Assembly (NCBI GenBank): GCA_022508925.1
Contig: JAFLUF010000014.1
Span: 1 to 35,732, forward strand
Direction of reading: 5' to 3'
DNA: 35,732 nt
From: Oscillospiraceae bacterium
GTDB lineage: Bacteria > Bacillota > Clostridia > Oscillospirales > Ruminococcaceae
Shown here: positions 2,045-12,588 of the stretch, piece by piece
Layout of the letters: every line of letters begins with the position of its first letter
How positions within the stretch are numbered: position 1 is the stretch's first letter
Position numbers and translations under genes: made by a program
Notes under the pieces: generated by a model
Database searches by the model: none
Seen by the model: only the letters and a program-made list of their open reading frames with translations
What the model was told of the DNA's origin: nothing

Positions 2045-3391
2045 GTGAACAACATTCCGCTTAGAATTTTTGTTATGGTTTTGATTGCGGGAATAATAGG
2101 AATTGTGGGAGTTTCTATTCTCACGATAGATATTACTGTGCTTTCAGACACCTATGAGGTTATTATAAACGACCATACCAAAACCCTTGAGACCACAAGC
2201 GACATAAGGGCGTTGATATATAAGCATCAGTCCGTTATTTCAAAGCATATCTCGGCGGAAGACGAAGAAAAGTTCGGAGAATACGAGGCTGAGGCCGCGG
2301 AAATTGAAAAAAGCATTAAAGACGAGTTTGAAAAGCTCAGACCGAAAATGCAGGACGTTGAGCGCGGACCGATATTTCACGACTCATATTCGGGATTTGT
2401 AGGCTATCTTGCCAACGCCGAACGCGCGGTATATTTCAGCAGAACGGGACAGGACAACACCGCAAACTATTACGTCGTGTATGTAATGGACGCCAGCGTA
2501 AGAAGCGTAAGCGAAGCGTTTGATAAGCTTGACGCGTATGCCGAGTCGGAAATTGAGAGAGCAAGCGGGGAAATGAACGCTTATATAGAGTTCTCAAAAA
2601 TAAGCGCGTTTGTAGCTATTCCCGTTATTGCCGTATCTATGATAATCTGCTCGCTTTTGTGCTTTAAGATAACCTCAAACCTCAACAGCTACAAAAACCA
2701 GCTCGAAATTGATATTGAAAACAAAAACAAAGCTTTGATCGAGCACAACGAGAAAATGCTGAAACTTCAGAATACGACGATCATCGGAATGGCGACGCTT
2801 ATCGAAAGCCGCGACGGAGATACGGGAGAGCACGTAAAACGCACGAGCGTTTATGTCGCTATGCTTGCCCAGGCCGCGAGACAGGCGGGATATGAACGTG
2901 AAACGCTTACAGACAATTACATCGAGTTTCTGATCAAAGCCGCGCCGCTTCACGATATAGGGAAAATAACGGTATCCGATACTATTCTGCTCAAGCCTTC
3001 TCGGCTTACCGCAAAGGAATACGAAAAAATTAAGTGCCATGCCCGCGAGGGCGGACGTATAGTCCGCCAGGTTATCGGCGGCATAGGCGACGAGGAGTAT
3101 ATCAACATTGCATCCGACGTTGCGGCGTATCACCACGAAAAGTGGGACGGAAGCGGATATAATGAGGGACTTTCGGGAACAGATATCCCGCTTTGCGCGA
3201 GGATAATGGCGATAGCGGATGTGTTTGACGCGCTTATTTCAAAGCGCTGTTATAAGGAAAGCTTTCCTATCGACGAGGCGTTCAATATCATAAGAGAATC
3301 TGCGGGAAGCCACTTCGACCCTGCGCTCGCAAGAATATTTCTTGATATCCGTCCGCAGATAGAGGATTATCTCAAATCGTTGGGAGAATAA
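2045..3391 (+). CDS. Membrane sensor HD-GYP phosphodiesterase (cyclic-di-GMP hydrolysis)
   Basis: A 448-residue protein. One membrane segment spans about residues 8-30, an extracytoplasmic, mostly helical region about 31-185 (resembling chemoreceptor four-helix sensor domains), a second membrane segment about 187-207, a short coiled coil about 215-243, and an HD-GYP domain about 245-440. Within that domain the metal ligands and signature residues are visible: H263 in GEHVKR, H303-D304 in HDIGK, H332, H363-H364, the GYP-type loop DGSGY at 368-372 (the strict GYP reads GYN), and D392 in ADVFDAL. HD-GYP enzymes degrade cyclic-di-GMP to pGpG or GMP. There is no GGDEF, EAL or receiver domain. The start is GTG, with AGGAAG about 11 nt upstream; a nearby ATG at 2035 is out of frame. 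It follows the lipoprotein by 32 bp and precedes thiS by 2 bp. Confidence 0.92.
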   Translation: MNNIPLRIFVMVLIAGIIGIVGVSILTIDITVLSDTYEVIINDHTKTLETTSDIRALIYKHQSVISKHISAEDEEKFGEYEAEAAEIEKSIKDEFEKLRPKMQDVERGPIFHDSYSGFVGYLANAERAVYFSRTGQDNTANYYVVYVMDASVRSVSEAFDKLDAYAESEIERASGEMNAYIEFSKISAFVAIPVIAVSMIICSLLCFKITSNLNSYKNQLEIDIENKNKALIEHNEKMLKLQNTTIIGMATLIESRDGDTGEHVKRTSVYVAMLAQAARQAGYERETLTDNYIEFLIKAAPLHDIGKITVSDTILLKPSRLTAKEYEKIKCHAREGGRIVRQVIGGIGDEEYINIASDVAAYHHEKWDGSGYNEGLSGTDIPLCARIMAIADVFDALISKRCYKESFPIDEAFNIIRESAGSHFDPALARIFLDIRPQIEDYLKSLGE

Positions 3392-3393
3392 AA

Positions 3394-3588
3394 ATGGCAA
3401 GAATAAACGGAGAAGAAATCAACGCAAACAGTGCCCTTGTATCCGATTTTTTGGCTGAAAACGGATATGGCACAGAGCGCGTTGCGGTTATGATAAACGG
3501 CGAGATACTTCCGAAGTCCGACTACAACAGTACAAAAATTTCCGACAGCGACGAGGTGGAAATTGTCGGCTTTGTCGGCGGAGGCTGA
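3394..3588 (+). CDS. thiS: ThiS, sulfur carrier for thiazole synthesis
   Basis: A 64-residue ubiquitin-like protein ending in VGFVGGG. The C-terminal Gly-Gly is the site of adenylation and thiocarboxylation by which ThiS donates sulfur to the thiazole ring of thiamine. The internal pattern, with VAVMINGEILPKSDY and SDEVEIVGFVGGG, matches the family, and the length is usual. The gene starts 2 bp after the HD-GYP stop, with GGGAGA inside the end of that gene as ribosome site, so it is cotranscribed and perhaps translationally coupled. Immediately after its TGA begins a large palindromic element. The expected partners ThiF (adenylation) and ThiG (thiazole synthase) are not encoded nearby. Confidence 0.9.
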   Translation: MARINGEEINANSALVSDFLAENGYGTERVAVMINGEILPKSDYNSTKISDSDEVEIVGFVGGG

Positions 3589-3727
3589 AATTTCAGGCTG
3601 TCGATAAGCCCCCATCTGTTTTGTCAGCCGTACCACGGCAACCAGATGGTTAGCCGCGGTACGGCTGGGGTTTGCGCAGCAAACTCCGTTCGCCTGCATC
3701 CGGGGGCTTCTCAACAGCCTGAATTTC
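3587..3727 (+). repeat. Long palindromic intergenic element, copy 1 (thiS-thiH)
   Basis: A 141-bp inverted repeat that starts within the thiS stop codon. The outer arms GAAATTTCAGGCTGT and ACAGCCTGAATTTC pair with one bulge. The next arms, AAGCCCCC and GGGGGCTT, continue the stem. An inner hairpin at 3625-3667 (CAGCCGTACC ... GGTACGGCTG) fills the middle. It shares its ends with copy 2 at 11418-11523: CTGTYGATAARCCCYCATCTG at one side and GGGCTTCTCAACAG at the other. It holds no credible ORF. It could be a MITE-like mobile repeat or a structured RNA; the stems change in a compensatory way between copies. The strand given is relative to the flanking genes. Confidence 0.85.
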
Positions 3728-3747
3728 TCTCACCAATGTTTATTATA

Positions 3748-3771
3748 AAAGCCGTGTCACAGCGGTTTTTT
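3748..3771 (+). terminator. Possible weak Rho-independent terminator before thiH
   Basis: AAAGCCGT (3748-3755), a 6-nt loop, and GCGGTTTT (3762-3769) form an 8-bp stem with two G-T pairs, followed by a run of T. It may reduce read-through from thiS into thiH. The stem is weak, so the call is tentative. Confidence 0.4.
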
Positions 3772-11364: not shown

Positions 11365-11417
11365 AGGCTTTGTTCACCGTCCTTCTCCTGCGAAAATTTA
11401 AATATAACAGCTTATTT

Positions 11418-11523
11418 CACACTGTTGAGAAGCCCTCAGATGTCAGTAAACCGTGCAACAGCCAGCCTTTTGTGGCTGCCGTTTCGCGGCTGACGCCACA
11501 GATGAGGGTTTATCAACAGTGTG
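11418..11523 (-). repeat. Long palindromic intergenic element, copy 2 (flhB-flhA)
   Basis: A 106-bp inverted repeat directly abutting the flhB stop codon (TGA at 11526-11524). The outer arms CACACTGTTGA and TCAACAGTGTG pair perfectly, followed by AAGCCCTCA / TGAGGG. In the reading direction of the genes it begins CACACTGTTGATAAACCC and ends GGGCTTCTCAACAGTGTG, matching copy 1 at 3587-3727 in the same orientation relative to transcription. The outer stem differs from copy 1 by paired changes (CAGG..CCTG against CACA..TGTG). The inner part is shorter and diverged. Confidence 0.85.
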
Positions 11524-12588
11524 TCAAGCGTGAAGCGTTTTGTTCTTTGCCTTATATACGATCAGCAATACCTCCGCCACCGCGTCGTAAAGCTCGATCG
11601 GAATTTCTCGCCCCAGATCCACCTGCGAATACAGCGCCCTCGCAAGCGTCGGGTTTTCTATACACATGACATCGTGGTTTTCCGCGATATCTATGATCCT
11701 CTTTGCCAAATAATCCGCGCCTTTTGCAACAACTACAGGCGCTTTGTTTTCGTCCTGGTCATATTTCAGCGCGATAGCGTAGTGAGTAGGGTTTCTCACG
11801 ACAACGTCCGCCGAAGGAACGTCCTGCATCATTCGCCTCTGCGCCATCTGCTGCTGTCTTTGCTTTATCTTTGACTTTACCTGCGGGTCGCCTTCCATTT
11901 GCTTATACTCTTCCTTGACTTCCTGTTTTGACATCTTGAGCTTTTTCTCAAACTGCCACCACTGAAACAGGAAATCTCCCGCCGCCACAAACACCAGCAT
12001 AATGCATATAAGCATTACCACATCGTAGATCGACAGCGCCGCGTAGGCTATACCCTGCATAATTCCCGCGCCGCTGAGCGCGATTATCCTCGGAAGCCTG
12101 TCGGATACCTCATTGTATACCAGCACACTGACAACAATTACCTCGATAAGCCCCTTCAGAATACCGACGACAGCCTGCATTGAAAACAGCTTTTTTATTC
12201 CCTCAAGTGGATTAAGTCTTGAAAACTTCGGCGCGCAGGCCTTCATCGTAAACAATCCGCGCGTCTGCGCAACAGTCGGTATTATCCCCAAAACCATCGC
12301 AATAAGGCAAATGGGCATTACGACTATCACTACTATTGTAAATATATCCACCACAATGGGCATCGTAGTATCAGCGTTTAATTCATATCTGCCGGCGTGC
12401 TCAAATATATCCGCCGAATAGTTAAGCACGTTTTTTATCATAAACTCGGCCAACAGTCTCATAGCCGTGAAAATTCCGAGAACCGAGGCCGCGGTTACTA
12501 TCTCCTTGGACTGTAGTACATTTCCCTCTTTTCGCTGGTCACGCCGCTTTTTCGGAGTGGCTTTTTCGGTTTTTTCCTCGCCTGCCAA
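11524..12588 (-). CDS. flhB: FlhB, flagellar export specificity switch
   Basis: A 354-residue FlhB. It begins with EKTEKATPKKRRDQRKEGNV, the N-terminal signature, then has four membrane segments (about 33-52, 78-103, 140-160, 187-208) and a cytoplasmic tail with the self-cleavage site NPTH at 266-269. Cleavage between Asn and Pro switches export from rod/hook to filament substrates together with FliK. The start is TTG at 12588, with GGGGTTGAG just upstream. It lies 22 bp after fliR. The element copy 2 begins immediately after its stop codon. Confidence 0.95.
   Translation of the reverse strand: MAGEEKTEKATPKKRRDQRKEGNVLQSKEIVTAASVLGIFTAMRLLAEFMIKNVLNYSADIFEHAGRYELNADTTMPIVVDIFTIVVIVVMPICLIAMVLGIIPTVAQTRGLFTMKACAPKFSRLNPLEGIKKLFSMQAVVGILKGLIEVIVVSVLVYNEVSDRLPRIIALSGAGIMQGIAYAALSIYDVVMLICIMLVFVAAGDFLFQWWQFEKKLKMSKQEVKEEYKQMEGDPQVKSKIKQRQQQMAQRRMMQDVPSADVVVRNPTHYAIALKYDQDENKAPVVVAKGADYLAKRIIDIAENHDVMCIENPTLARALYSQVDLGREIPIELYDAVAEVLLIVYKAKNKTLHA

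Follow-up and report, generated by a model that had tools for sequence, protein, structure and literature searches.

What are the two palindromic elements that lie behind genes in a 35,732-nucleotide stretch of DNA from an Oscillospiraceae bacterium (the window), and what has shaped their stems? The original prediction placed them behind genes read as thiS and flhB, described common ends and paired differences in the outer stems, and proposed selection on a folded form, either as a structured RNA or as the hairpin substrate of a transposase, for instance of the REP/RAYT type. The common ends and the paired outer-stem differences were found in the sequence as described. A covariance model (R1), built from 18 copies of the window's genome with both window copies included, has its only window matches at E ≤ 1 at these two places, with a weaker reading of each on the opposite strand. 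The parts of the two elements are as follows, where LE is the left end, RE1 an internal inverted copy of that end and RE2 the outer end.

3586–3588, + strand: TGA stop of the gene upstream of the thiS copy (thiS as first read), from sequence and translation
3594–3721, + strand: thiS copy, palindromic body from LE to RE1, from sequence; R1 match at 3589–3726, + strand, 109 bits
3594–3611, + strand: thiS copy, LE, CAGGCTGTCGATAAGCCC, from sequence and the conservation boundary over 155 flanks, some counted on both strands
3626–3666, + strand: thiS copy, central hairpin, from folding
3667–3687, + strand: thiS copy, extra hairpin module, GGGGTTTGCGCAGCAAACTCC, from sequence and comparison of copies
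3704–3721, + strand: thiS copy, RE1, GGGCTTCTCAACAGCCTG, from sequence and the conservation boundary
3722–3750, + strand: thiS copy, expected place of RE2, none recognisable (score 7.0, shuffle p = 0.15)
11389–11417, − strand: flhB copy, expected place of RE2, none recognisable (score 6.0, shuffle p = 0.24)
11418–11435, − strand: flhB copy, RE1, GGGCTTCTCAACAGTGTG, from sequence
11418–11523, − strand: flhB copy, palindromic body from LE to RE1, from sequence; R1 match at 11413–11528, − strand, 105 bits
11506–11523, − strand: flhB copy, LE, CACACTGTTGATAAACCC, immediately after the TGA, from sequence
11524–11526, − strand: TGA stop of a 354-aa open reading frame at 11524–12588 (flhB as first read), from sequence

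Both elements had been said to begin at or directly after a TGA stop codon. This is accurate for the flhB copy, which starts on the next base, but in the thiS copy five bases separate the TGA (3586–3588) from the conserved left end at 3594. On the quoted strand, the folds are far more stable than those of 200 dinucleotide shuffles (z = −9.5 for the thiS copy and −6.8 for the flhB copy). The stems are nevertheless imperfect: a single T/C mismatch recurs in 120 of the 128 distinct copies. No Rfam family reaches its gathering score within the window.

The two palindromes belong to a dispersed family. The search of the genome and its relatives with a covariance model, which the original prediction had proposed, returned many further copies. 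The window's genome gave 93 R1 rows at E ≤ 0.01, of which 42 are other-strand repeats, leaving 51 distinct places, a lower bound reached with 150 of 745 first-look candidates scored. The motif CTTCTCAACAG occurs 23 times in this genome, compared with a single occurrence of its reversed control. R1 matches were obtained in 38 of the 43 genomes of the genus (E ≤ 0.001; 78 candidates scored per genome). Among 197 genomes sampled from the order, the sole match at E ≤ 1e-5 was the window's own and the other 196 gave none, in a shallower search (17 candidates per genome among the matches listed, with stricter filters) that rare or diverged copies could escape. Comparison at the sequence level thus describes a family that is spread through one bacterial genus. 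One match was also found in the metagenome-assembled genome SUG235, and a 14-base left-end pattern gave a single match in each of 2 out of 24 genomes of other families.

The extent of the element is not that of the palindrome. In 155 flanks, some of them counted on both strands, strong conservation reaches no more than a few bases past the arms, and many copies in other species carry the second end, RE2 (ACTTTTTCTACARRCTG), downstream of the palindrome. RE2 lies about 25–40 nt beyond the palindrome, most commonly 27–30 or 39–41 nt from RE1. Read from these alignments, the palindrome is part of an element whose unit extends to RE2. The full unit would run from LE (CAGRCTGTCGATAARCCC) through the central hairpin or hairpins, RE1 and a linker to RE2, over some 130 nt or more. 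The presence of the palindrome varies between sister species: sites in genome G006 lack it together with roughly 20–30 nt beside it at L006, L021, L068 and L082, and with less at L088, and at some other palindrome-free sister sites the difference extends past the element (L002, L015, L076 and the thiS site). In the two window copies, RE2 is unrecognisable when the tails are compared with shuffles. They are placed in the family through the shared body, without a readable RE2 or a demonstrated duplication, and are most likely old members in which RE2 would have decayed.

Two side observations concern these sites and ends. The thiS-site probe (the protein encoded at 2045–3391) was a poor one, as its C-terminal half matches many places, and the usable sites are those of G006 and G022. 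Both (L173 and L174, offset about 3005) carry a different inverted-repeat sequence, AAAGTC followed by a TTGAAAGGGAGT stretch, which may belong to another repeat family. The R-box sequences of integron attC sites are RYYYAAC and GTTRRRY; compared by eye, the ends of the present family stand in the opposite order.

The flanks of the full units show what happened at the target. Among the 50 copies in which RE2 can be read, 24 carry direct repeats on both sides that score higher than the 99th percentile of 1467 shuffled pairs, 19 surpass the highest control, and 26 have no duplication, fractions that describe copies fetched from strong matches and are not genome-wide rates. The 50 were drawn from 128 distinct usable copies, the others being duplicates or having an unreadable RE2. 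In 22 of the 24 the repeats are flush with both ends, no gap exceeding 2 nt. Whole hairpins of 20–29 nt with differing sequences make up 20 of the 22, and the other two are an 11-nt match and a decayed 17-nt match. The duplications come from G013 (13 of 17 copies), G017 (3 of 8), G063 (2 of 2), loci labelled G000, the window's genome (1 of 5), G006 (0 of 2) and the remaining loci (5 of 16). The loci labelled as the window's genome comprise 29 usable copies, five with a readable RE2, and their one duplication is weak.

The duplicated hairpins resemble terminators. Each of the 20 flush hairpins is bordered by TTT behind the right copy or by AAA ahead of the left copy, with both present in 11, compared with 65 of 305 control places. 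The stem runs for 6 bp or more without a break in 16 of the 20 left copies and 14 of the 20 right copies. A second, overlapping set of 50 copies has stems of 8 bp or more in 14 left and 11 right flanks, against 1 and 3 per 1000 base-shuffled flanks; there, repeats with a score of 10 or higher appear in 16 of 50 copies when RE2 is taken as the end (30 nt) and in 0 of 50 when RE1 is (24 nt). LE and RE1 had also been tried as the two ends of the element, and a scan for a short target duplication there gave nothing convincing, as expected if RE1 is not an element end. The best reading of the flanks is that the element homes to terminator-like hairpins, which probably act as terminators, and duplicates them whole. 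At L264 and L265, paired stem changes distinguish the two target hairpin copies, which were presumably identical when the insertion took place.

Two insertion sequences (ISs) of the genus have ends similar to those of the family. The IS at L126 (G033) is 1551 bp long, runs from CAGTCTGTATATAAACCCC to GGGGTTTTTGGACAAGCTG and contains an uninterrupted 476-aa frame, whereas that at L124 (G020) is 1532 bp long with a broken frame. Each is flanked by complete palindrome copies, the same target scar as that of the miniature elements. The L126 transposase is a member of the IS1182 family (NF033551, 379 bits, cut-off 270), and the LE and RE2 consensus of the family, compared by eye and without a statistic, is similar but not identical to the L126 and L124 ends. 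DUF772 transposases are found in 13 of the 43 genomes of the genus, the window's genome not among them. A search with the L126 transposase matches 12 of the 43, with at least 57% identity in G033, G020, G019, G008, G066 and G030, mostly as fragments, and the only uninterrupted full-length relative is in G033. These transposase searches found no related enzyme in G000, G006, G013 or G017. G013 and G017 are the source of most duplications, yet lack a match; their partner transposase may have been lost or may lie in assembly gaps. At two further places, L246 (the L139 place) and L256, IS1182-type ends enclose 374 and 787 bp that contain transposase fragments; inverted repeats adjoin them, and both are apparently internally deleted ISs.

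What has been observed directly is the family, the full unit in other species, the flush duplications of whole hairpins and the IS1182-type elements with similar ends and the same scar. The explanation that we favour, with a probability of roughly 0.9, is that the family is an IS1182-related MITE (a miniature, non-autonomous transposon) that targets terminator-like hairpins, and that the window copies are likely old members. An IS1182-type DDE transposase would be supplied in trans and would most likely recognise LE and RE2. The target would be recognised as a cruciform, and LE and RE2 would be joined to the two 5' feet of the extruded hairpin, typically a terminator behind a gene. Repair after this presumed strand joining would leave a complete hairpin on either side, and the covariation of the stems would stem from copying between the arms. 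The original prediction is partly supported: it described a family with real covariation, and a hairpin element moved by a transposase was one of its two options, the likely enzyme being an IS1182-type DDE transposase in place of the suggested REP/RAYT type, for which no Y1_Tnp was found in the window's genome.

That copies lie just behind genes and close to stop codons agrees with such targeting and would be explained by it. A gene reads into at least one side in 97 of the 111 copies with two called neighbours, and 11 copies lie inside a called open frame; gene calls are open frames alone, and some of the counted copies are orthologues. A stop codon lies −3 to 11 nt from LE in 29 of 69 genes reading into LE, compared with 9 of 52 at the same distance from the estimated RE2 end (Fisher p = 0.005). 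One possibility, by analogy with IS1272, is that LE comes nearer to stop codons through hairpin replacement.

The covariation on which the original prediction was based is real. When 128 distinct copies are compared in one orientation, complementarity far exceeds that of shuffles at many arm pairs, with z values of 8 to 12.5 at several positions, and a few inner arm positions are kept unpaired. In the 18 copies, six pairs have two-sided changes, a number reached by 2 of 500 shuffles, and pairing falls when the partners are slid; further pair types do not exceed shuffles (264 of 500 reach the observed number). The copies being related, neither the z values nor these shuffle counts are to be read as probabilities. 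Selection on the folded form in place, by contrast, is unsupported, because, in 11 orthologous copies of G000 and G006, each of the 12 altered arm pairs has its change on one side only; the 11 were hand-picked from 25 alignments that include chance coding-DNA pattern hits, double readings and poorly alignable copies. Eight of the 12 are paired in G000 only, three in G006 only and one in neither. The palindrome (49/1173, 4.18%) and the tail (12/286, 4.20%) diverge alike, and the flanks stand at 484/8422 (5.75%). Left out of the set were L066 and L071 (L019), which are true but poorly aligned copies, the short reading of L001, and L081 at 1505, which is shared but has no spanning match. The set includes L080 (the L013 locus), whose reversed tip counts as several substitutions, and L077, whose orthologue is distant (82.6%).

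Several copies show changes of another kind. At L091, differences at two sites make RE1 of G000 perfectly complementary to LE, and the copy has no RE2; two of the eight G000-only pairs lie in this copy. The central hairpin tip is reversed between the orthologues L013 and L202 (G006), with AGCCTTTGTGGCT in one and AGCCACAAAGGCT in the other. Copies and orthologues also differ by the gain or loss of hairpin modules, roughly 21–28 nt long, that adjoin the central hairpin (3667–3687 in the window, L004, L010, L012 and L021, the last with three modules). We read the L091 match, the L013 tip and the L004, L010 and L012 modules as copying between arms during replication. It is also conceivable, though we think it rather unlikely, that the body itself acts as a folded single strand, with arms matched in the mobile phase, modules and tips swapped, and hairpin-templated rewriting beyond point mutation; the matching may then result from recognition that depends on structure, or from one arm serving as the template for the other. 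In the LE and RE1 arms, oriented and reduced to 96 distinct haplotypes, A.C mismatches outnumber G.T mismatches at 11 of the 14 positions (p = 0.057, sign test); on the complementary strand, A.C mismatches of the arms become wobble pairs.

If the copies were gene-end hairpins or structured RNAs whose fold is kept by selection as a terminator, stabiliser or regulator, this would account for the strong covariation, the very stable folds, the genes reading into most copies, the excess of A.C mismatches and the slightly lower divergence of palindromes than of flanks. We nevertheless regard it as improbable: the orthologues change one arm at a time with palindrome and tail diverging equally, copies are dispersed and variably present between sister species, target hairpins are duplicated on the flanks, no Rfam family was recovered in the window, and the further pair types in 18 copies stay within shuffles. 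Still less credible is the view that the palindromic body is a hairpin unit in its own right, captured by or hitch-hiking in IS1182-type MITEs and partly spread or changed by hairpin template switching. Most copies in the window's genome keep the body but have no readable RE2, a picture that a body-based search favours, and the reversed L013 tip, the mobile modules of L004, L010 and L012 and the L091 arm match would suit it as well. However, LE resembles the L126 IS end and is flush with the duplicated hairpin, which indicates that the body contains one true element end.

That the elements are of REP/RAYT or IS200/IS605 type, folded single-stranded DNA moved by a Y1 transposase, has hardly any likelihood. 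Imperfect hairpins that keep their mismatches would agree with it, but no Y1_Tnp (PF01797) was detected in the window's genome (89.85% complete), in a search of this genome alone whose control responds in 5 of 14 known genomes. Moreover, flanking duplications of 20–29 nt, as found here, are not expected from the Y1-transposase mechanism.

What stands out in this probable IS1182-related MITE family is that complete terminator-like hairpins of differing sequence are duplicated flush with the element. The duplication suggests a way of settling behind genes with the terminator left intact, and structure-guided target choice by a DDE transposase becomes testable on a small substrate. The family also cautions against taking covariation in a bacterial repeat as proof of a functional RNA. 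Among the open-licence papers that our searches brought up, beyond which reports may exist, we met none of this family or of IS1182 MITEs with whole-hairpin duplications.

Among known repeats, REP/RAYT elements are extragenic imperfect palindromes near gene ends. The present family is like them in this and differs in its long target duplications and in a host genome where no Y1 transposase was found. BOX elements have a modular anatomy of hairpins and variable internal modules. As far as the excerpted account goes, BOX, RUP and SPRITE, repeats of Streptococcus pneumoniae (PMC10969869), are likewise short and mostly intergenic with hairpins, a likeness at the level of description, in a different host. 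MITEPye1 of Paracoccus yeei shares with the family IS1182-like terminal repeats, direct repeats and a long stem-loop fold, and is preferentially intergenic; the available part of its description reports 1–3 copies in chromosomes, as opposed to at least 51 places in the window's genome, and whole-hairpin duplication was not met in that part (PMC11578231).

Hairpin targeting with hairpin deletion is already known in the IS1182 family from IS1272, which targets stem-loops and terminators (PMC4923244, PMC5678879). In the accessible sections of these reports, the stem-loop targets of the staphylococcal IS1272 and TnSha1 have no sequence consensus, several are terminators, and the stem-loop is reported to be deleted or replaced with no duplication of the target. 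The model in PMC5678879 includes a possible pathway b, in which joining at the 5' feet of the stem-loop may duplicate it whole, and the flanks of our family copies are consistent with that outcome as far as the excerpt describes it. The likeness to IS1272 and TnSha1 thus lies in the same-family transposase of the related IS of the genus and in the targeting of stem-loops and terminators, whereas here complete hairpins are duplicated, not removed, by MITEs that carry no transposase.
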